This document shows positions 19,729 to 46,720 of a stretch of 64,000 bases of DNA, one piece after another. This stretch comes from Tomocerus qinae. Its lineage: Eukaryota; Arthropoda; Collembola; Entomobryomorpha; Tomoceridae. Positions within the stretch are counted from its first letter, which is position 1. Each line of letters begins with the position of its first letter. The notes beneath the pieces were generated by a model. It made no database searches. It saw only the letters and a list, made by a program, of their open reading frames with translations, and was not told where the DNA came from. Made by a program: the position numbers and the translations under genes. The DNA lies in contig CM034546.1 in the NCBI GenBank assembly GCA_020055645.1, positions 80,786,001 to 80,850,000 on the forward strand, given 5' to 3'.

Positions 19729-22584
19729 CTACGCACGAATTTTAATTCGTTTGAAATAATTAAGAAACTCTTGTGCTTCTTCTTTGGTGAAGTCGGGCTT
19801 ACTGACCCGTTGCATAGCTTTCTCTGCCTCAATGCTAATATCCTCTTGCATAACTCTGTTGACTTTGCTAATGTTATTCTGAATGTGTTGAACCAATTCC
19901 TTCAATTCATTTTTCTTCAATTCCATTTCTTCGTCTTTTTCCAAGTTGTTGCGAATAACTTTAATATAATCTTGAATATTTTTCATTCTAGAGTCTTTGA
20001 AATCCAGACTATCTGTTGCAGAGTTGATTCCGAAAATGTTTTCTCTATTGACGGTGCAATTAACAAAAAGGACGTGTCTCTTATGAACGGGATCTTTAAT
20101 TTGAACAAACTCGACTATTTGTTTTTCGTTTCCTTTGTCTTCATATATTTTCACAGAGTGACCGTCCTGAGCTGTTTTTGGGACATTGTAAGCCGTAGAA
20201 AATTCTTGAGGAGTAAGGCACGACGTGCCTTGGTTAATAATTATACGGTTTGTCCTATTTTTATCATAAATGCACAAATTGTAAAAGGTTTTGTCCAGAA
20301 CTGAGTCTCTGGCAGAGACAATTGTATTCGCCAATGCTTCCCCAAATATTAAGGCGCCCTGCAAGACTTGGCTTCCAGATGCGTGATAATATTCTGGTAT
20401 ATCTCGTTTAATAAAACTGTCTCTGAATTTGGTCAGTATTGTTTGATCTTCGCTCATTACTACTGCCGCTGTGATGGCATCTTCAGGATGATGAGCATAG
20501 GTTGTCGTTATTATGTTTTGTTTATAAAACCTACTTTTCGTAAAACGACAGTCACCAAAATTGGAAATCATTCTGATTTTACCGTCTTGGCATTTTTTAT
20601 AAACTGCAGTGCATAATTCAGCTTCGTCAGATGTCAAAACTAATAAATGTTCGTCTTGTGATGATAATTTATTTCGGCTGGATAGTGTTTGCGAGTCATA
20701 GTCATAAGTAGAAGTTTTCCATTTGTAATGGTAAAGCGCAGCAGCACTTGTATTGTTAATCAGGAAACATTGTTTAAATCCCGCAATTGTCGCAGCGTCT
20801 TTGATGTTTTGTCTTTTCAAGCTACCAAACCAAATGGGAACCGCTATCAATGCTGTCGGATAACTGCATTTCGACATTTTGTCGCATTTCTGCTTAATAT
20901 CACGGAATATCAACGCAGAAATGAATTGGAAATTTATTGGAATGCTATCCTTCTTTCCTGGTATGGTCAAATTCCTCAGGGTAGCATTTGGTTCGATCAA
21001 AAGCTCTTCAATTGTAATAAACTGCAATGTTTCATTGCCATAGGTCGTATTTGGCGATTCTCCAACTGTAAATTCTCCATTGAGACTAAATGTAACAACA
21101 TTATTCACCTTCCGTCCTGTTCCAAAATCCACAATAGCATGTTTCAGTAAATCCGTTTCTGCTTCCCGAAGTAATATAGCCACTTGGCTGTACTTAATAC
21201 AGAAATCAATTGCAATCAGAGGCAATTCGCAGCCTTTATTTTCTTCCTCTGTCAATTTGGCATTGTTTTCTTTTCTCAAATTGACCCCATGGGTCTCAAT
21301 CATTTGGAGAAGCATTTTTGTATAGCGACTGTCTTTCTCTTCTGGGCAGAGACGCTCTATTTTGTCGTTTAGTTCATTCAGCAATTTGTTTTTGGCCTTT
21401 TCGAATAAGCCTTTGAATTCTGTATCCGTCCGAGGATATTCCGATATTTTCTTGTTTAAATCACTATAAAATTTACTCTGAAGTACACCGATGGTCTTGT
21501 TGATCTCTTCAATTGCTCGATCCATTTTGATTTCGTTTGCAATTTCATACTCCTTAAGTGTGACATTCAGTTGTGCCAGTAGGTCGTCAATATTTAGCCC
21601 AATATTCTCTAGATTGATTTTCTGAGTTACAATATCAATGCAAATATTACAAATTTCTTCGTGATATCCCTTGATCTCCCTGTTGCGACGAATCCCGCTT
21701 TGAATAAACGCTTGCTGTTTGCTTCTGTGGAAGTTCTTCACTGCAGCTTCAACAGTTTGTTGTTCTTGCTTTCGAATCCGAGCATTATACAACTGGAACT
21801 TATTCTTCTGCAGGGATAATACGTGTTCAACAAAGGATTGCAATTCGTTTGAATGATTATTGGTCTTAAGAACATCTTTTATTGCTTTTCTGTGTAAATC
21901 CTCGAGCACCTCCAATGAAAAATATGGATTTTCCAAGAAATGGTTGCTCATAATTGATTCGTAGTTTTCCAAGAAATGTTTTGCTTCAAGGGCAGATCGT
22001 TTGAGTCTTTTAACTTTGTCGTTAATCAATACCTTGATAATTTCCGCGTCTTCGGGATGTAATTGCTGTAGCTCACTGGTCAATAATCTTTCATGAATTT
22101 CGTTAACCAAATTTTTCAAATTGCCGAAATCCTTCTCTCGGTTTATACAGCTTTTCAACCTACTGAATAATCGGCTTTCGTATTTTTCTGATAATTCGTT
22201 TGCGGTCTTCCCCACCGATTGTAAGGTCGAGTTTCGAATTACTGTCAAATATTCGAATTCTAGTGAAAGTTTTGTTCTGTTTTCTTGATCTTTATCACCA
22301 TTTTGAAATAAAGGCAAGATTGTGTCCACCACTTCAGTATGAATATTTCCCCAGTCGCTTAGTTTACTGTTCGCCAATTTAATAGTCATATCCTGTCTGT
22401 ACAAAGAATTGAGAATGGGTCTCGTTTCAGTATCCACTGCAACTGGAATGTTTGGTATTGAAACAGCTTCAGATGATGAAATGCATCCAAAACTTGCATT
22501 TTCCATTGAAGTCAAATCATTACTTCTAGTCTCAAAATCCAATTCCACTGCTATTGTAGCGGATGTTCCTTCCTCCACTGACAT
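19729..22584 (-). CDS. HSP70-like pseudo-chaperone with helical N-terminal half (951 aa)
   Basis: One uninterrupted 951-codon exon. Residues 1-100 are unassigned. About 100-450 are helical and charged, with units near 198, 285 and 372 of the type seen in the neighbouring fusion protein (AKHFLENYES...LEDLHRKAIKD). Residues 455-870 follow the HSP70 fold colinearly: IAIDFCIKY (457-465) stands for [29 protein letters not shown] (581-600) for [17 protein letters not shown], and INNTSAAALY for [12 protein letters not shown]460 remains, but the GTT phosphate loop, the Glu of INEP (now N611) and the whole DLGGGT motif (now TSDEAEL) are gone, so ATP hydrolysis is very unlikely. A substrate-domain-like part and a helical tail follow. 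The frame is open throughout, which argues for a selected pseudoenzyme. It lies 1.5 kb downstream of, and on the same strand as, the fusion gene. A splice acceptor 41 bases before the ATG suggests a 5' UTR exon. Confidence 0.8.
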   Translation of the reverse strand: MSVEEGTSATIAVELDFETRSNDLTSMENASFGCISSSEAVSIPNIPVAVDTETRPILNSLYRQDMTIKLANSKLSDWGNIHTEVVDTILPLFQNGDKDQENRTKLSLEFEYLTVIRNSTLQSVGKTANELSEKYESRLFSRLKSCINREKDFGNLKNLVNEIHERLLTSELQQLHPEDAEIIKVLINDKVKRLKRSALEAKHFLENYESIMSNHFLENPYFSLEVLEDLHRKAIKDVLKTNNHSNELQSFVEHVLSLQKNKFQLYNARIRKQEQQTVEAAVKNFHRSKQQAFIQSGIRRNREIKGYHEEICNICIDIVTQKINLENIGLNIDDLLAQLNVTLKEYEIANEIKMDRAIEEINKTIGVLQSKFYSDLNKKISEYPRTDTEFKGLFEKAKNKLLNELNDKIERLCPEEKDSRYTKMLLQMIETHGVNLRKENNAKLTEEENKGCELPLIAIDFCIKYSQVAILLREAETDLLKHAIVDFGTGRKVNNVVTFSLNGEFTVGESPNTTYGNETLQFITIEELLIEPNATLRNLTIPGKKDSIPINFQFISALIFRDIKQKCDKMSKCSYPTALIAVPIWFGSLKRQNIKDAATIAGFKQCFLINNTSAAALYHYKWKTSTYDYDSQTLSSRNKLSSQDEHLLVLTSDEAELCTAVYKKCQDGKIRMISNFGDCRFTKSRFYKQNIITTTYAHHPEDAITAAVVMSEDQTILTKFRDSFIKRDIPEYYHASGSQVLQGALIFGEALANTIVSARDSVLDKTFYNLCIYDKNRTNRIIINQGTSCLTPQEFSTAYNVPKTAQDGHSVKIYEDKGNEKQIVEFVQIKDPVHKRHVLFVNCTVNRENIFGINSATDSLDFKDSRMKNIQDYIKVIRNNLEKDEEMELKKNELKELVQHIQNNISKVNRVMQEDISIEAEKAMQRVSKPDFTKEEAQEFLNYFKRIKIRA

Positions 22585-23279: not shown

Positions 23280-23864
23280 CAGAGGAGTTTACTCCGATGT
23301 ATGCGTTTACACTCTCTGTCTGTCTGTCTGTCTGTCCGTCCGTCCGTCCGGTCCGTCCCTATACGTGATAACTTTGGAACGGTGACACCTAAAATACTCA
23401 AATTTTCAGGAAACAATCTTGAGGTAAAATGTAGGTCTGAGTTCGTATATGAGCAGGATCGGTCACATCCCCTGACTGGGGGAAAGGGTTGAAAATTTCA
23501 ATTGGCGATAACTTTGGAACAGTTATACCTAAACTGCTCAAATTTTCAGAGCACAATATTGAGGTAAAATGTAGGTCTGAGTTCGTATATCAGCACAATC
23601 GGCCACATCCCCTGATTGGGGGAAAGGTTTGAAAATTTCAATCGGCGATAACTTTGCAACGGTTATACCTAAACTAATCAAATTTTCAGAAAGCAATATT
23701 GAGGTGAAAAGTAAGACCGAGTTCGTATGTGAGCAAGATCGGTCACATCCCCTGACTGGGGGAAAGGGTTGAAAATTTCAATTGGCGATAACTTTGGAAC
23801 GGTTATACCTAAACCACTCAAATAAATTTCAATTGGTGATACTTTGGAACGCGAAACTCCTCTG
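23280..23864 (+). mobile_element. Type-2 GTCY element with 140-bp tandem repeats
   Basis: Ends are CAGAGGAGTTT (23280) and AAACTCCTCTG (to 23864), an 11-bp inverted repeat. After the head comes (CTGT)n(CCGT)n, then units starting GATAACTTTGGAAC at 23367, 23507, 23647 and 23787, exactly 140 bp apart, and a short fifth start. The plan matches the type-1 elements at 13.8-17.5 kb, but the sequence differs. It separates the two HSP70-related genes. Confidence 0.85.
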
Positions 23865-24113: not shown

Positions 24114-27100
24114 TTACCCAGTTTCCCTCGAGCCCTGCAAAAATAATTATTGTGTAAATAAATAAATGATTTATAGCTTAGTAGTCTCAATGTCTTAAAT
24201 AACTTTAATTAAAAATGCAGAATTCAGAAATTAGCCTTGAAAGGAAATATCAATTTACCCTGCTTAAAATCCTTTGAATCGTTTCTTTAGTCAAGCGCCA
24301 TTTCTGCTCAGTGACAGTCAGTCCCATTTTAGAGACACCATTGGTTGAACAAGTAGCTGTAACATGCAAGACGCCTTGAAAATCAATTTCTATTTGGACA
24401 ATAATTTCCTCCTTTCCCCTTAGATTTGGTGGGATTCCATCAAGGCTGAAATTTCCCAGTGGGACATTTTCAACTGCAACAATTTTTTCTCCTTGGAATA
24501 CTCTGATTGCCACACTAGTTTGGTTGTCATAAACTGTGTAGAAGTCCTTAAGAACGGTTGTAGGAATGGTCGTATTTCTTGGTATGATGACAGACAACCC
24601 GCCTCCAAGAACTTCAATGCCGATTGAGAAAGGATTGACGTCGCTGAGTTCGTTGTAGTCAAGTGAGACTTTTGAAATTTCTCCGTTAATAATTGCAGCT
24701 TGAATGGCTGCTCCAACTGCAACGGCTTCGTCGGGGTGAATTTTATGACTTAAGGTCTTATTGTCGAAATATTCAGAGAGTAGTTGTTGTATCTTTGGGA
24801 TCCGAGTGGATCCGCCAACAAGGACAATGTCATCGATGGCTGATTTGGGGACTTCAGCTGATTTCAGGACTTCCTCGAGGATTTCGATGGTACGGTCAAA
24901 AAGATCTTCGTTCCGCTCTTCGAATGTTCCTCTTGACAAGCTGATATTCACATCCAAATCGGGGGCAACACCATCAATACATATGTTAACATTTTCATTT
25001 GTAGACAGAAATTTTTTCTGGCGTTCGCTTTCGTCTTTGAGACGTCTGAGAAGTCGCAAAGAATCCCGCATTTCGTGAAATTTTGGCGAATTTCTATCTT
25101 TTAGTAAATCAACATCATGCGTTGCTTTAAACTTTTCTACGCAATAGTCAACAATGTTGCTGTCGAAATCTTCTCCTCCCAAATGTGTGTCCCCGCCAGT
25201 AGCTTTAACCTTAATTTCTCCTCTTTTCATTTCCAGAACAGCGACATCAAAGGTCCCTCCTCCAAGGTCAAAAATCAAGATATTTCTGGTGGAAGTGTCC
25301 ATGTGGGCTATTTTATAGGCAATAGCAGCGGCAGTCGGCTCATTAATTATTCGAAGAACGTCTAATCCCGCTAATACTCCAGCATCTTTAGTTGCCTGTC
25401 GCTGGCCATCGTTAAAGTAGGCAGGAACAGTAATCACCGCTTTTTTTACCGGGCAGCCAAGGTTCTTTTCTGCTATTTCCTTCATTTCTGTCAAAAGTTT
25501 AGCAGAAATATCTTCGGGAGTATAAGTCTCATCATCAACTTCTATCACTGGGGATTCATTCTGCTCAATAACTCGGAATGGAAAATGTTTAATATCTTTT
25601 TGAAGCACTTCATCGTCAAATCGGCGACCAGTCATGCGTTTAGCATCGTAAATTGCATTTCTAGGATTTTCGCCAGCCTGGGTTTTGGCAGCTTCTCCCA
25701 CAATCGTCCCGCCTCTCATGAAAGCGACGTAACTCGGAGTTGTATTCTGTCCATTCCTGTTAGGAATGACAATAGTTTTTCCTCGATGGTAATAAGCCAC
25801 ACAGCAGTAGGTAGTTCCAAGATCAATTCCTATTGCAGGATCTTGGGGTAAATTCGCGGTGTTCTCGTCTTTATATTTCTTGTAGGTGATATCCAAGGAA
25901 CGTTTCAAATCCTCTTTTTGGAATTCGCTAAGGGTCGCCTTATCGCATCTGGAGATGGAATTCTTGACTACACTCTTGTGAATCTTGTCTAACTCAAATG
26001 GATTAATGAATCTTTTGTTGGCAAGGTTTTTTTTCATTTCTTCGTGGTAAAAACTCTTGGCTTCTATCAACGCTTTTTCCGTCACGTCGGCGTCCTTTGA
26101 CCATTTTATTTCACAAATTTCAAAAATGTCGTCATACGATGTTTTAATATCTCCTTCCAAGGCCCTGAGAAAAGGTTCCCAAACAGAAGAGTCGTTTACT
26201 GCACTCTTCTTCTTGAAGTTATCTAAAGCTATTTGCTTGGCTCCGTTGTGGGAAGAAAGAAGCATTTCTTCCTTTCTTGCAAGTTTGTAGGACTTTTTTA
26301 ATTCATTATCATAAATTCGTTGACTATGTTGCTGGAGGTTAGTCAGTTCTTCAAGAACTTTGCACCGATTTGCACGATTTTGCTCTGTGATTCTTTCGAA
26401 GTATAAATTGCATTGCCTTTCTAATTTATTCTTGAATTTTGTGTCATTTTCTTTGCTGTCATCAACTTTGGGAAAATCCGAGTAGACTGTCAAAGCTTCT
26501 TGCCAAAATTTGTCTTTTTGATTTTCCAAAACTTCATCATCATAAAATTGTCTCTTTTGCAGAAAAGTCAACAGTTTGTTTGAAAAGTACAGCAAGCCAT
26601 TTTGATGTGCTCCTTCAAAACTCTCTTCAATCGCTCGCTTTTTCCGCTGAAATCTTTCCAGAAGTTCGTTTTTGATGGCCAGCATATCTCTGTCTAATTG
26701 GGAAATGAAGAATCCAACTTTGACATAGTCTAAGTCTTGATTGCCTTGGATAAATTGGTTTCTGGCCTCCGCAGATTTAACTTCATAAGTTTCATTAATA
26801 AGATTTTCTGTTTTCATAGTATCATCGTGATTCATGCTGTCTCTATAGGCATCTAAAACGACTTTCATACTATTTTCCGCAGCTAGATTTAGCCGTTCAA
26901 GTCGCATAATCTTTAGAGAGCAAATTTTTTCTTCGGCAAATGTGTCAATCATTTTCTCCAATTGTAGCGAGTATTTCTTGAATACCTCGGGATAATTTGC
27001 ATTCAATTGTTTAGCTTCTGTAGTAAATTTTGCTATGGCGGTCAGCTTTGCATTATTAAAAAGCTCTTCTAAGCCTTTATCGCTTGTCGACCATGGAATT

Positions 27101-28485
27101 TCATCGCAGTCAGTGGAATATTTAAAAAATACTCCATTTATTTTGTCATCGAGGAATTCTTGATTTCGTTTGGATATAATTTCAGTTTTGTCCGTGTCAA
27201 ACATCTCTGTGAGTTCTCCTATTGTGATTTGCAGCTTTGCCATTGAATCTTGAACAGAAGCAAGTAAATTGCTGGTCAATTGAGAGGAAAAGGTGTCAAT
27301 TTCCTCCGGAATGTAATCAGATTGGCTGTTACTGAAGAAAACTAACGCGTTTCTGTATTCCTCTGTGACTTTTTCTTTCAGGTTCTTGACTCTGTTCTCG
27401 TGGTTGTATCCTTTCAATTCGATGAATCCCTCTTCAATGCATTTCTGTAGAGTGTTCTTCATCGTCTCCGAGTCGTCTCCAAAGGTGAACATAAAGGATT
27501 TTGCTTCTTTCTTCCACTTTTCGTGGCATTTCTCCAAGTCGTCGTTCTCCAAGCTATTCGATTCAATAGAGGTTTTCATATTTTCAGAGTAGAACAAAAA
27601 AGCACCGTGGATTTCATTTTTTTGAAATTTTTCTAAGGTTGCCACCGCCAATGAAGGGTTCGATGGGTTTTTATCCTCGTTCAATACTTCGATAAATCTG
27701 ACACAGTACTCCAAAAGTTGTTTGACCTTCAACTGCTTTCCAAAAAATTCTTTCGGTACGAAAATATCTTCAGAGCAGAATTGTTCAAAATATTTGAGAC
27801 AGGCAGGATTGAAACCCGTGGAAGATTTCATTTGTGGCAAAAGAAGACATTCCACATTTTCGAATGACTCTTTAATAGTGGCATTTCTGAAAGAATTGTC
27901 GGCCAGTTTGCTATTCAGCATTGCAGAGCCCCCATCTTTGCCATATTGATATTGACTTGTGCCGTCCCAGCTCTGTACAAAGAAAACCAAGTTCTGTAGT
28001 TTCATCAGGTTCGTTTCTTCTTCCCTGAGGCAGTTGTAAGTAATTGTGGCTAGAATATTTTCTTGTATGTATTTTGAGCAGCTGACCAAAAATACGGAAG
28101 AAGTGAACATGGAAAATCCCACTAATTTTCTCCATTGCTCATCTGCTTGTGTGTTTCCGTATTTTACTTGTGCTTCAAGTATTATTATTGCCAAATCTTC
28201 ACCATTGGTGTTTTTAGTCAGTATCGGCTCGTGGATCCAAATCCCATTTCCTTTCAGCTCATTAGAATGAACGCGAATGTTTTCCTTCAAAGAGACGCAG
28301 GAGCTGCTGCATGGCAAATATTCTTTCAAAGCAGATATCACAAGATGACCATCTTCTCTGCTAGCCACAGTGATTACAGCCACAGTCATTTCTCCTAATG
28401 GCTCCAATATGTTTGCAAGTTTCGGTTCATCAAGAATAGCAGCATTCTCCGAAAATGATATTATTTGCTTCTTGACCTCCACCAT
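24114..28485 (-). CDS. Atlastin-like pseudo-GTPase / helical repeat / HSP70 fusion (1415 aa)
   Basis: CDS complement(join(24114..24134, 24259..28485)). The main exon ends at AGG|GTAAAT and the next begins after TTTTTGCAG, adding six residues. The start is the ATG at 28485 (GAAATGG context), just after an acceptor; a 75-bp 5' UTR intron (28491-28565) has a GTAAGA donor. Residues 30-290 track the atlastin G domain and its linker: GIWIHEPI (81-88), FTSSVFLV (127-134), NLVFFVQSW...YQYGKDGG (165-186), LLLPQM, KQLLEY. Every nucleotide motif is lost: P-loop GKS is GHL (46-48), DTxG is EAQV, RD is QS. Residues 290-870 hold about seven helical units of roughly 87 residues. Residues 882-1390 are a canonical HSP70 ATPase and beta substrate domain. 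D888, K949, E1049, D1073, T1078 and GGSTRIPK (1224-1231) correspond to the catalytic and binding set. There is no helical lid and no EEVD. Fusion is within a single exon. Confidence 0.88.
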
Positions 28486-29149: not shown

Positions 29150-30300
29150 TTTTAAGTCACCCCGTCATTTAACATCACCCCGCGTCATTTTACATCACCC
29201 CATCATTGTAAATTGACGTCCTTTTAAATAACCCCGTCATTTTAAATAGACGTCCGTTTAAATAACCCCGTCATTTTAAATGGGCGTCCTTTTAAATAAC
29301 CCCGGCATTTTAAATTGACGTCCTTTTAAATAACCCCGTCATTTTAAATAGACGTCCTTTTAAATAACCCCGTCATTTTAAATAGACGTCCTTTTAAATA
29401 ACCCTGTCATTTTAAATAGACGTCCGTTTAAATAACCCCGTCATTTTAAATGGACGTCCTTTTAAATAACCCCAGCATTTTAAATTGACGTCCTTTTAAA
29501 TAACCCCGTCCTTTTAAATAACCCCGTCCTTTTAAATAACCCCGTCATTTTAAATAGACGTCCTTTTAAATAACCCCGTAATTTTAAATAGACGTCCTTT
29601 TAAATAACCCCGTCATTTTAAATAGACGTCCTTTTAAATAACCCCGTCATTTTAAATAGACCTAATTGTAAATGACAGTGCCGCAGCCAGGGGGCCAGAC
29701 ACTCCCCCCGAAATCAAAGAAAAAAAAGCAATTTTTTTGTCTTAAAATCCAAAATTTTTTCATATTTTCACAGATAATTTGTCGCCCCCCCCAAATTTTT
29801 TTTGGCTGCGGCCCTGGTAAATGACCCCGTCATATAAAATAGACGTCATTGTAAATGACCCTGTCATTTTAAATAGACGTCGTTGTAAATGACCCCGTCA
29901 TTTAACACTGTCTTTTCAAATAGACGTCATTGCAAATGACCCTGCCATTTTAAATAGACGTCGTTGAAATGACCCCGTCATTTTAAATAGATGTCATTAT
30001 AAATGGCCCCATCATTTAAAATAGACGTCATTTTAAATAGACGTTATTGTAAATGACCCCGTCATTGTAATGTCCACACATTTTAAATAGAAGTCGTTTT
30101 AAATATTTTCGTCGTTTAGAATCACCACTTCAATTTGAATAACCCCGTTGTTTTAAATCTGTTAACGTCATTTTAGAAAATCTCGTCATTTTAAAAAATC
30201 TCATTTTAAATAACCTCGTCATTTTAAACGTTCCTGTCATCTTAAATAATCTCTTTATTTTAAATATTCCCGTCATCTTAATATTCACGTCATTTTCACC
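29150..30300. repeat. 34-bp minisatellite (CCTTTTAAATAACCCCGTCATTTTAAATAGACGT class)
   Basis: Alternating half-units GTCATTTTAAATAGACGT and CCTTTTAAATAACCCC recur for about 1.1 kb. They are nearly perfect up to 29660 and increasingly diverged after the MITE at 29676-29816. Not coding. Confidence 0.9.
29676..29816. mobile_element. hAT-type MITE, family CAGKGCCGCAGC, with 8-bp TSD
   Basis: Ends CAGTGCCGCAGCCAGG and GGCTGCGGCCCTG are inverted. Flanks 29668-29675 and 29817-29824 are both GTAAATGA, an exact 8-bp duplication. It is inserted into the 34-bp minisatellite. Confidence 0.9.
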
Positions 30301-34530: not shown

Positions 34531-35145
34531 ATGTTTACTAATAATATCAATTTTCATCAACAGAGCATTGAACGAAAAGGCACAGAGAAAAATAGGGCAT
34601 TTAATCTGGAATCTGAACTGGAAAAAGAGTGCAAAAACCGGCCGTCTCAGATAATAAGTAAAAGTCTTTTGGTTTTGGTAAATTGTTGCTGCTTTAGAGT
34701 ATTGGAAAACTGTTCATTACATGGGAAAATTTATTAAGTATATTCTTTTCAATGAAGGGAAGTGAGATGTTGACGTAATTATAAAGTTGTGGTTAATATG
34801 AATAATGAATATCCTTTTAACTTTCCAGTCCAACCAATAACGGATGTGCTCAAAGCCTGCATGGAGGACTTGGAAGAAAAGACTGAAAATTTAGAAAAAG
34901 AAATTGAAGGAATAGAAGAGGAGATTGAAGAAAGGAAACATTTAAAACCTATTCATCATAAATTATCAGAAAGAATTGCCCAGTATCAATTAAAATTGGA
35001 CAGAATCATTGTCACCGGACACGAAGACATGCGAACGGAAAGAAAGAAAATAATTGACAAGCTAAATTTATTGGCCGTGCTACTAAAATCGAAAACTCAC
35101 GCTACTGGACTTCCTTGTGACGATTGTGAACTAAAAACCTTCTAA
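34531..35145 (+). CDS. Small BAG-domain co-chaperone-like protein, two exons, 147 aa
   Basis: CDS join(34531..34657, 34829..35145). Exon 1 ends phase 1 at a GTAAAAG donor; exon 2 starts after a strong acceptor (CCTTTTAACTTTCCAG). Without splicing, an ATG at 34798 gives 115 aa; the domain is the same either way. Residues 45-130 are a charged helical bundle with the BAG pattern: paired acidic helices (ENLEKEIEGIEEEIEE), a KLSERIAQYQLKLDRI helix, then HEDMRTERKKIIDKLN, matching the family helix-3 signature (D-x-R-x-x-RK-x-x-V-x-K-x-Q) that contacts the HSP70 ATPase domain. The tail has CDDC. BAG proteins release nucleotide from HSP70. No ubiquitin-like domain is visible upstream, unlike BAG1. 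It lies 6 kb from the fusion gene and is divergent to it. A generic coiled coil is the alternative. Confidence 0.6.
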
Positions 35146-42688: not shown

Positions 42689-42755
42689 TTTGGCGCAGCC
42701 TGCTAAACTTTTTTGTGTTTTTCTGAGTTAAAATGTGTCGCCAGTAAAACTCACC

Positions 42756-45700
42756 ATGCCTGTTGGGAAGTTAAACATTTTTAACCCCTCGTGTGACGAT
42801 TTTGAGTCGTGGGTGGGTATCTTTCGAAACTACCTGATCGCCAACGATGTCGACCCTGTCAAGGAAAAGGACAAGTGTCGATCCATCTTCCTTTCGTCAA
42901 TTGGCATGTCATCGTACACTGTTCTCCACGATCTACTTTCTCCGGACAAACCCGAAGCAAAAGATCTGGATGTGTTAATTAAGGAATTAACGAATCACTA
43001 CAAACCAGCACCAAAAGCCATTGCTCAACGTTTCAAATTTTTCAGTCGCAAGCAGAAGCACGGTGAATCAGTTAATTTGTTTTTAGCTGAACTACGTAAA
43101 CTCGCCGTCACCTGTAAGTTCGAAAAACTTGATGTCTCTCTCCGTGATCAATTTATATTTGGTTTACTCTCTGAGGCTGCACAGAAAAGACTTTTTCTGG
43201 AGGATGACTCACTCGCCCTCGCCAAGGCAGTTTCAATTGCCCTTAGCCAAGAAGCAGCAGAAACCAGTACTCAAATTGTAAGGCAAAATGGTAGTCCTAC
43301 CAATTCGTCGCCGTCGGAGTTTACCAACAAAGTTCGTGGCAAGTTTACGCAGCACCCCAAGAGTCAAGGGAAAGAGTCAAAGTCAGAATCTTGTCCCAAC
43401 TGTGGAAACAAACATTCCAAAAAGGACTGTCCACACAAGGATGTCACGTGCAGATCCTGTGGAAAATTAGATCACTTTGCGAAATTCTGTCGCTCAACGC
43501 CTAAAAACGAAGGTTCTTCTAAAAAACAGTCTAGTAAGGCTCGTACAATCAACCAAGTATGTCGTACTAATCGTCAAATAAGCATACCCGTGTCTATAAA
43601 TGATGTTACTCATGTTATGGAGTTGGATACTGCTTCAGGAACTAGTTTCGTTCCAGTTTCGTTTTGGAAACGTCTCGGGTCCCCAACGTTAACCAAATCA
43701 GCTGTTGTCTTCAGTACCTACACTGGTCAACAATTCAAGGCGGAAGGAAAGTTCTCCTGTATCGTCAAGTACAACGGTCAGTCCGTCAAGCACTTTATGC
43801 ACGTCGCTGAAGGTTCTGCTCTGTTCGGTCGTGACCTCATCAACAAATTGCAAATGGATTGGCAAAACATCAAAGCCCAATGTTCGCAAGTTTGTAAGTT
43901 AACTAACAATACAGATCTAAAATCATTGTTATCAGAATTTAGTGATGTTTTTGACAAACCAGTTGGAACAGTTAAAAGTTTTAAAGCAAAACTCGTGCTC
44001 CGTGATGATGCAGTACCTCGTTTTTTTAAGTCTCGTCCAGTGCCCTTTGCTTTACGTGACAAAGTGAATGCAGAACTTGAAAGAATGGAGAAGTCTGGTG
44101 TCATTACTCGTATTGAACATTCGGATTGGGCATCTCCTCTTGTTGTCGTCCCAAAGCCAAACGGTGGTATTCGAATTACTGGTGATTTCAAGAAAACAAT
44201 CAACAGTCAGCTGTGTGTGACTCAATATCCGTTGTCACGTGATGAAGATATTTTCGAGTCAGTTTCTGGTGGTGAAAAGTTCTCCCAGTTGGATGGTCCA
44301 GATGCCTTCCATCAAGTGGAAGTAGAGGAATCCTGTCGAAAATTTTTAATGATCAACACCCCCCGCGGTTTATATCACTACAACGTTCTTCTTCAAGGTA
44401 TCGCTTCTTCGCCTGCAATTTTTCAAGAGCTCATGGATAATATGCTAAAAGATATCAGCATGTGCAGATCTTTTATCGACGATGTCATTTGCTCTGGGAA
44501 AAATGACAAAGACCATCTCCAGAATCTACGTAAAGTTTTTCAGAGGATGCGTGAGTGCAACTTTCGACTCTCCCGTAAGAAATGCCAATTCTTACAACCT
44601 CACATCAAATTCTTAGGCCAGCAAGTCAGCTGTGACGGTCTAAGAACGGATCCATCCAAAGTGGAAGCTATCATGTCCATGAGAGAGCCTAAGGATGTTC
44701 CGGAAGTCAAGTCATTTTTGGGTTTGATTAATTTCTACTCAAAATTCATTCCCAATTTGTCCCATGTGTGTGAATCGTTAAACCATCTCACTCGTAGTGG
44801 AGTAGAATGGAAGTGGACAAATCAGTGTCGTAATTCATTTAATCATGTTAAAAAACTTGTTTCGTCTGCAGGTGTATTAGCTCACTATCAACAGACAGTT
44901 CCTGTTGGTATCGCGTGTGATGCTTCTTCTGTCGGTTTAGGTGTCGTCCTTTTCCACAAATACCCAGACGGAGACTAAAAACCAATTGCGTTTGCTTCGA
45001 AAACACTTTCATCAGCAGAACGTAATTACTATCAAATTGAACGAGAAGGACTTGCTATAGTGTTCGGACTGAAAAAGTTTTTCCAGTTTTTGTGTGGTCG
45101 TAAGTTTTTACTTATCACAGATCATAAACCACTATTAGCTATATTTGGCACTAATCGCGAGGTACCTCCATTAGTAACTACCCGGCTTAATCATTGGAGT
45201 GTGTTTATTAGTCAATTTCAGTATGACATTGTATATCGTAACACAAACAGTCACGGAAATGCCGACGCGTTGTCACGTTTACCGCTCCCAGATTGTTCTC
45301 CTGCTGATGAGGAAACACAATTCGTCGTAAAGAAGATTGGAGATGAAAATCCAGTTACTTCAAAGTTAGTCAGATTTCGTACGTCACGAGATCGAGTGTT
45401 GTCTTCTGTTCTACGCTATATACAGAATGGTTGGCCCAGTAAACCGTCTCAAGTTCCTGACAACCTGAAACCGTACTTCAGTCATCGTTATGAATTGTCT
45501 GTGTAACATGGAATTCTCATGTGGGGAATTCGTGTCGTCCTTCCTTCATCTCTCAAGTCAGATATCCTACGTCAACTTCACGACACCCATCCTGGCATAG
45601 TTGGAATGAAATCTATCGCAAGACAGTATGTGTGGTGGCCGGGAATCGACAGCGATATCGAGACTATGGTGAAAAGTTGTGTTGAGTGTGCAGAGCATCG

Positions 45701-46720
45701 TCACAATCCAAAGTAATGCTCCACTGCACCATTGGTCTTTTCCTGAACGACCGTGGCAGAGATTACATATCGATCTAGCTGGTCCGTTTCAAAATAACAT
45801 GTGGTTATTCGTCGTAGATGCTTACTCCAAGTGGCCCGAAGTTTTCAACATTGGAAATGATACCACGTCTTGGAAAGTTATCAATCGTGTGCGTAAAACT
45901 TTTTCTCGTTTTGGAATACCAGAAACAATTGTGTCTGACAATGGTCCTCAATTGGTTTCCAAAGAATTCGGTGAATTTTGTAAAAAGAACGGTGTTCGTC
46001 ATACCACAAGTAGTGCCTACCATCCTCGAAGCAATGGGGAAGCCGAACGTTTTATTCAATCATTCAAGAACGCAATGAAGATGAGTAGTAAAGGCAACCT
46101 TTAATTTGAGTATGTGTGACTTTTTACTAAATTACAGAACGACTCCTCATGGTACAACTGATGTGTCACCCTCAGAATTACTCATGAAGTCTAAACCGAA
46201 AACGTTACTGGATCTCATCCGTCCCGATGTCAACTCCAGAGTCCGTATCAAACAAGAGCTTCAACAAGAAACATTCAACGGAAAATCTCCATGTCGCGAA
46301 TTCCGTGATGGTCAGTCAGTTTGGGTTCAGACTTTCTCCAAAGATACTCCGAAGTGGTCACTAGGAAAAATTGTCCGTCCCATGGGTCCAGTTTCTTACG
46401 AAGTCAACGTAAATGACCGTGTGATGAAACGTCACGTCGATCATATTTTGTCAGGGGAGGTAGCAGAGTCAGTTCCTGTAAAACTTCCTAGTCCTGTCAA
46501 AGTTAAAAGTGAAACACCTTATCACTCCGCTTCGACTACTCCAGTAAAAGTTGAACGTGGACATTCTTTTTCATCGTCTCCAGGTTCCAGTCTTGTGTCC
46601 GTTCCATTTCCAGAAGATGATGAAAGTTCCCCAGTTGTAAACACTGAGTCAAATTCAGGGTCAAGACCTCAACGGCAAACCAAGCCAATTGATCGTCTGA
46701 ATTACAGTAGTTTCAAGTAG
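42756..46720 (+). pseudogene. Ty3/gypsy gag-pol, broken by two stops and two frameshifts
   Basis: From ATG 42756: capsid-like gag, then two CCHC-type zinc knuckles near 43395-43495 (CPNCGNKH, CRSCGKLDHFAKFC), an aspartic protease with a variant active site ELDTASGTS (about 43622), RT with FIDD (about 44475), RNase H with CDASSVGLG, an HHCC integrase zinc finger (LHDTHPG...CVEC) and an integrase core with HIDLAGP, SDNGPQ and NGEAERF. Breaks: in-frame TAA at 44976-44978 and 45504-45506, and frameshifts near 45712-45720 and 46095-46106. The protease DTA instead of DTG/DSG is unusual. It resembles K02A2.6-like elements of invertebrates. Confidence 0.9.

Follow-up and report, generated by a model that had tools for sequence, protein, structure and literature searches.

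Atlastins, for example human ATL1 and ATL3, combine a GTPase (G) domain with a three-helix middle domain, and HSP70 chaperones such as HSPA1A and HSPA8 combine a nucleotide-binding domain (NBD) with a substrate-binding domain (SBD) that includes SBD-beta and the SBD-alpha lid. We identified a gene in which these parts lie in one polypeptide, at 24250..28485 on the minus strand of a 64,000-nucleotide stretch of the genome of the collembolan Tomocerus qinae (hereafter the window; it is located on contig C1, 140 Mb of a 334 Mb genome). The predicted protein contains a degenerate atlastin G domain, an array of atlastin middle domains and a lidless HSP70; and it belongs to a family of 19 fusion loci. 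We regard this architecture and this family as practically certain.

The likeness to atlastin comprises the G domain and the three-helix middle domain, which match end to end in one fused copy (L014; E = 9e-89), and the position, in the P-loop of the GTPase-competent copies, of the catalytic arginine (presumably R77 of atlastin). The fusion differs from atlastins, including the ordinary atlastin of this genome (L030), in its array of middle domains, in the absence of a C-terminal hairpin and in the HSP70 found instead, and the window copy has in addition lost the GTPase motifs; moreover, 7 of the 19 fused genes are a single uninterrupted frame, whereas the genome's ordinary atlastin is spread over many exons. 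Compared with the cytosolic HSPA1A and HSPA8, the fused HSP70, which is itself of the cytosolic type, has the NBD and SBD-beta (HSPA1A residues 6-520) with unchanged catalytic residues, but it lacks the lid and the C-terminal EEVD, its linker is altered, it carries a large N-terminal fusion, and no pair of near heat-shock elements lies upstream. GBP and IRG proteins are likewise multi-copy GTPases with active and dead members (by motif) in common clusters, but the G domain of the fusion is atlastin-type in sequence, not GBP-type, and we know of no HSP70 in GBP or IRG proteins. The NBD of yeast Ssz1 is atypical, whereas the NBD of the fused HSP70 is complete. Both Ssz1 and the plant Hsp70T1 type III proteins are HSP70s without SBD-alpha, according to PMC10687569; to our knowledge, neither is fused to a GTPase. 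No description of an atlastin/GBP and HSP70 fusion was found in the open-licence PubMed Central literature, although undescribed database entries may exist. An earlier reading of the window from its letters alone (the sequence-only reading) knew of no described protein with this plan, and in this respect it stands; as a one-off protein, however, the window gene gives way to 19 fusion loci.

Architecture of the fusion genes

The genome contains 86 HSP70 matches (E≤0.001) and 85 GBP-domain matches (E≤10). We retrieved 19 loci with HSP70 matches from C1 and compared them together with the window (20 loci in total): the order G domain, middle-domain repeats, HSP70, all on one strand, is found in 18 of the 19 retrieved loci and in the window, and the last repeat leads straight into the start of the HSP70. 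The exception, L023, has no G domain within the retrieved stretch; L024 has a fragmented one. Seven genes (the window gene, L009, L010, L011, L014, L015 and L019) consist of a single uninterrupted frame; the remaining fusion loci are divided by introns or broken frames, two conditions taken together here, with broken frames in, for example, L022, L024 and L026. The fusion genes are grouped in seven clusters. L009 (C1:132.38 Mb) and L026 (C1:132.44 Mb) have G and HSP70 domains that are identical in the compared columns; since the frame of L026 is nevertheless broken, one of them may be an assembly duplicate, or the break a sequence error. Among the weak GBP matches of the genome are about fifteen long frames, two of which (L033, C1:23460300-23465400, and L034, C1:132683800-132690300) contain GTPase domains of a URGCP-like type (E = 2e-64 for the former, 8e-44 for the latter), representing another large-GTPase family in this genome.

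The window gene runs from an ATG at 28485 to a stop at 24250 in one frame of 1411 codons, in which both domains are matched in the expected order, so that a single-exon fusion of an atlastin-type G domain with an HSP70 is upheld. Its 3′ end could be placed differently: a candidate intron at 24258-24135 (AGG/GTAAAT ... TTTTGCAG/GGC) followed by a last exon at 24134-24114 (together 24114..24258, reverse strand) would give a protein finishing in GSRETG. A GT that could serve as splice donor is found near the same codon in 14 of the 20 loci (by eye, and not compared with chance), which makes a further 3′ exon possible. Of the span 24114..28485 first proposed for the gene, therefore, the start is confirmed, and the end applies only if 24135-24258 is spliced; otherwise the gene ends with the stop at 24250.

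The G domain of the window copy covers approximately residues 1-290 (27616..28485). Residues 76-286 match human atlastin-1 in a search of PDB (E = 3e-12), and a profile built from the intact paralogues matches the domain at E = 1.2e-22; both place it in the dynamin superfamily, as claimed from the letters alone. The Pfam GBP profile matches the isolated G domain at E = 7.8e-4 (19.1 bits, below the cut-off of 21.1), and no GBP match at E≤1 was obtained for the whole 1411-residue protein against Pfam. The kinship is clearer in L014: a PDB search with its first 476 residues aligned residues 11-423 to human atlastin-3 over both the G domain and the middle domain (E = 9e-89, compared with 1.5e-14 for GBP5), and we thus rejected a GBP rather than atlastin identity. 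The same N-terminus found no relative in a scan of viral contigs.

In an alignment of 19 fused G domains, all four GTPase motifs (P-loop GKS, switch-I threonine, DTQG and RDW) are present in 16, some of which sit within broken frames; the switch-I stretch is missing from L024; and all four are gone from the window copy and its sister L019. In the window copy, the former P-loop reads SREDGH (residues 42-47, 28345..28362; GxxRxGKS in the paralogues), the former G3 motif reads LEAQV (residues 103-107, 28165..28179; MDTQG in the paralogues) and the former G4 motif reads VQSW (residues 170-173, 27967..27978; VRDW in the paralogues). The loss of GTP-binding residues noticed earlier is thus real, and a scaffold that no longer binds GTP is a reasonable description of the window copy by its motifs; it fails as a mark of the fusion. 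Since 16 of the 19 fused copies are GTPase-complete, the pseudo-GTPase state looks like a derived branch consisting of the window gene and L019.

The helical stretch between the two domains is a tandem repeat of 64 positions, with a spacing often near 88. An iteratively built profile yielded 58 matches at an independent E-value (iE) below 0.01 in the same proteins on which it was trained, and none in five-fold shuffled sequence; the eight proteins examined contain three to eight copies each at iE<1, and two to seven at iE<0.01. In the window gene, the first repeat (residues 295-357, 27415..27603, iE = 4e-13) occupies the position of the atlastin middle domain; further repeats are at residues 631-697 (26395..26595, iE = 1e-9) and 722-786 (26128..26322, iE = 2e-8), and the final one, at residues 809-871 (25873..26061, iE = 6e-16), adjoins the HSP70. 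A second profile, built from 21 of 37 extracted repeats with the first copies excluded (16 repeats were left out), was searched against PDB: the best 11 of its 20 matches are all atlastins (top E = 1.3e-7), and these matches fall on the three-helix middle domain. We thus read the stalk of the fusion as multiplied copies of atlastin's own middle domain, a more specific identity for what had been noted as helical repeats. Oligomerisation through the atlastin part is likely. A membrane role, suggested earlier, finds no direct support: a 19-residue hydropathy scan of eight fused proteins showed that the C-terminal hydrophobic hairpin of the genome's ordinary atlastin is missing, and their highest values (1.35-1.86, within the G or HSP70 domain) do not equal that of the ordinary atlastin tail (2.15).

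The C-terminal 528 residues of the window protein (residues 884-1411, 24253..25836) are an HSP70, comprising the NBD, an altered linker and SBD-beta (PF00012, E = 1e-178; human HSPA1A residues 6-520, E = 2.4e-156). Twelve key HSP70 positions are unchanged in 18 of the 20 fused HSP70s, including the window copy, in agreement with the observation that all catalytic residues are present; the two exceptions are L022, with a single gap, and L023, where residues differ. To call this HSP70 intact was too strong, because the lid and the EEVD are absent: the PF00012 match stops at profile position 511 of 599, and the HSPA1A alignment at about residue 520. No lid-like sequence was found 0.5-1.2 kb downstream of the 20 loci, so a lid exon just downstream was rejected, while a more distant one is possible. 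In SBD-beta of the window copy, the pocket residues V438 and T430 are kept and the arch residues 406 and 431 are changed. Overall, the window copy presents a GTPase half that is dead-looking and a chaperone half that is complete-looking. A second lidless-looking group of HSP70s is formed by L035 and L036 (C1:60.08 and 60.75 Mb), which are exon-split and Hsc70-like; their HSP70 match stops near profile position 510, the frame ends 20-35 residues further on, and none of the 85 GBP matches of the genome lies nearby.

We also searched for heat-shock elements. Near-matches are found in 2 of 19 upstream regions of fused genes (one each) and in all three canonical HSP70 genes (two each); a perfect element is absent upstream of all 19 fused and 3 canonical genes. 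A heat-shock promoter on the fused genes was rejected on the basis of these few single near-sites.

History and maintenance of the family

The fused HSP70s form one clade (support 100/100) outside the other HSP70s of the genome (which we take to be Hsp70, Hsc70-like, BiP-like and mitochondrial) in a tree of 16 rows that leaves out L022, L023, L024 and L026. The fused G domains (in a tree without L022, L024, L026 and L031) group separately from the ordinary atlastin, human ATL3 and four stand-alone atlastin-like C1 proteins. Groupings common to both trees are L012 with L014, L009 with L010, the window gene with L019, and the 27-Mb cluster, and these fit a single fusion followed by duplication of whole genes. 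Three observations tell against so simple a history: the fused G domains are held together by a support of just 90/91 (not starred); L013 groups with L009 and L010 in the G tree (97/96) but with L012, L014, L019 and the window gene in the HSP70 tree (90/80); and the synonymous divergence (dS) between L012 (C1:129.58 Mb) and L014 (C1:129.60 Mb) rises from 0.17 in the stalk through 0.38 in the G domain to 1.01 in the HSP70. The last two mean that copies must have exchanged parts, the uneven dS pointing to gene conversion or to a swap of domains; the whole would fit one fusion event, after which the gene was duplicated and the copies exchanged some of their parts. The four stand-alone proteins (L040-L043, at C1:74.76, 13.90, 70.90 and 13.90 Mb) are approximately 530-550 residues long, keep the P-loop and form a clade outside the fused G domains; the C-terminal part of L040 contains a glycine-rich hydrophobic stretch.

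The window gene and L019 are sisters in both trees (93/87 for the HSP70; 99/99 for the G domain, with a long-branch warning). Between them, the proportion of synonymous differences is 0.74-0.81, that is, saturated, and the proportion of nonsynonymous differences (pN) is 0.45 in the G domain, 0.52 in the stalk and 0.29 in the HSP70. Both frames are nevertheless open, so that the window gene is maintained. Seven other pairs have ratios of nonsynonymous to synonymous divergence (dN/dS) of 0.08-0.31 wherever dS could be computed (in L009-L010, for the HSP70 only), and the G-domain ratio is 0.12-0.21 in six pairs. The ratio is 0.47 for the G domain of the window gene against L014 (at dS 1.8) and 0.52 for the stalk of L019 against L014 (at dS 1.7). 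L009 and L026 show zero differences in the compared columns.

A linked BAG gene and the possible working of the fusion proteins

BAG proteins are nucleotide-exchange factors of HSP70. A gene of this kind (mini-BAG, 115 residues) is located at 34798..35145 on the plus strand of the window, divergent from the fusion gene and 6.3 kb from it (PF02179, E = 2.3e-7, 31.6 bits against a cut-off of 23.4). Its product resembles the known exchange factors in matching PF02179, and differs from them in being a stand-alone domain of about 100 residues with a C-terminal KTH..G..C..C-like stretch, and in its linkage to fusion genes. Homologues are found in the 27-, 64-, 78-, 129- and 132-Mb clusters, that is, with the window, in six of the seven clusters (the 128.96-Mb cluster was covered by the Pfam search alone), and five mini-BAG genes are arranged divergently to a fusion gene, at distances of 2.6 to 12.3 kb from its start. 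Genome-wide, four of seven Pfam BAG matches (E≤1) lie inside the fusion clusters, which occupy about 1.06 Mb (0.3% of the genome; binomial P = 3.4e-9, or 4.7e-8 within C1); of the matches over the Pfam cut-off, three of six do so (P = 6.2e-7, or 4.2e-6 within C1). The clusters were known before this test, and their margins were fixed after the BAG search. We consider the mini-BAG protein a probable exchange factor of the fused HSP70.

We propose that the fusion proteins are soluble scaffolds, most of them powered by GTP, which would carry a lidless HSP70 with a dedicated exchange factor, a proposal that we judge to be evenly balanced between true and false. GTPase-competent members would dimerise head to head in a GTP-dependent manner, as in atlastin; the paired heads would join two stalks and two HSP70 modules into a pair of lidless holdases gated by GTP; and the mini-BAG protein would drive nucleotide exchange, resetting the ATP cycle of the fused HSP70s. 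The gating of the chaperone by dimerisation is the more tentative part, for which we put the chances just short of even. The window member would lack conventional GTP binding, and may still clamp substrate with ATP; it would most likely be a constitutive or heterodimeric adaptor or regulator, and that it serves as such rather than as an independent scaffold is a suggestion we hold with slightly less than even confidence.

Several observations speak against this proposal. An altered interdomain linker (DLLLL in HSP70) is common to all 20 fused copies, so that the coupling of ATP to substrate may be weak. The 64-Mb mini-BAG gene is 12 kb from the start of the nearest fusion gene; the 132-Mb one is not near a fusion 5′ end, lying 11 kb past L026 and about 2 kb from a GBP-type exon; and the 129-Mb BAG match is under the Pfam cut-off, as are three homologues scanned singly. 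None of the 58 DnaJ matches of the genome lies in a fusion cluster, and a linked DnaJ partner was rejected on this count. Finally, the substrate pocket is not more variable than its surroundings: in 6503 of 10000 draws, random sets of SBD-beta columns varied at least as much as the 12 columns of the pocket (16 rows; L022, L023, L024 and L026 left out), by which a diversification of the pocket was rejected.

A single polypeptide here unites two unrelated NTPase machines; this fusion has persisted, grown in copy number and diversified, and most of its clusters also contain a gene for an HSP70 cofactor. This suggests a new means to localise and gate HSP70, and a new role for atlastin middle domains as a stalk; and with each half available in an active and a dead form, the family lends itself to direct tests of how GTP-driven dimerisation could control a chaperone.

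A constitutive role in proteostasis, in which the HSP70 is a lidless holdase, the atlastin part a rigid oligomerising arm, and GTP hydrolysis incidental and dispensable, is a possible alternative, though one that we would not favor. The HSP70 is the best-conserved part between the window gene and L019 (pN 0.29 versus 0.45-0.52), the window branch has shed the GTPase but kept its frame, and PMC10687569 describes cytosolic Hsp70s without a lid as holdases; yet the presence of all GTPase motifs in 16 of 19 copies and the G-domain dN/dS of 0.12-0.21 in six pairs speak against a dispensable GTPase.

It is somewhat less likely, though plausible, that the genes form a family for cell-autonomous immunity whose logic would resemble that of the vertebrate GBP and IRG GTPases, with GTP-competent effectors and dead regulators of the window type, the HSP70 capturing or unfolding foreign or damaged material. 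Such a family would be consistent with the many clustered copies (broken ones among them), with active and dead fused genes and degenerate paralogues close together, with the URGCP-type GTPases of this genome (one of the two inspected is near the 132-Mb cluster), and with the scarcity of near heat-shock elements (2 of 19 upstream regions, versus two per canonical HSP70 gene). There is a precedent for paired regulator and effector GTPases in the mouse, where GMS IRGs regulate GKS IRGs (PMC2904798). However, the pocket shows no excess variability, the measurable pairs are under purifying selection, and the expansion of clusters is compatible with other roles too. A fuller version, in which a pancrustacean chaperone machine driven by two fuels (GTP and ATP), with mini-BAG recycling and pseudo-GTPase and pseudo-HSP70 regulators, would provide a cell-autonomous defence that parallels the vertebrate GBPs and IRGs but arose independently of them, is in our estimate unlikely.

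That the window gene is a pseudogene left open by chance in a decaying array of duplicates is very improbable: broken frames do occur in several copies (L022, L024 and L026, for example), but its 1411 codons are open despite the saturation of silent sites against L019, and 12 of 12 HSP70 positions are kept, and we rejected it. Least probable of all are an apparent fusion of two separate genes, an isolated chimera or an assembly join, which we likewise rejected: the window and 18 of 19 retrieved loci share one order on one strand, seven whole genes read through the junction without a change of frame, and the last repeat abuts the HSP70 start.

Neighbouring sequences and other features

On the same strand as the fusion gene, at 19729..22584, there is a gene of the degenerate kind (951 residues), in which domain searches identified a pair of middle-domain repeats and, at residues 553-617, the remnant of an HSP70; no convincing G-domain exon was found for it within the window. 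It is akin to L031 (E = 1.5e-36), which has separate G-domain exons (P-loop present, DTQG absent) followed by repeats and a degenerate HSP70. By our own reading of the list, this short degenerate type accounts for 16 of the 86 genome HSP70 matches, every one of them on C1.

The fusion gene is flanked by tandem arrays: a 34-bp unit in 14 copies upstream (29183-29661), and a 140-bp unit in 3.3 copies downstream (23367-23823). The window also contains frames that by eye resemble a gypsy-type retroelement (42732-46720), and it includes a reverse transcriptase fragment (1426-2694; PF00078, E = 7e-15). Elsewhere on the contig, L028 (C1:36.67 Mb) and L029 (C1:139.12 Mb) are mitochondrial-type inserts; in L028, COX1 is open over 524 codons under translation table 5, and the gene order is I-Q-M-ND2-W-C-Y-COX1-L2-COX2-K-D-ATP8-ATP6, which we take to be the ancestral pancrustacean order.

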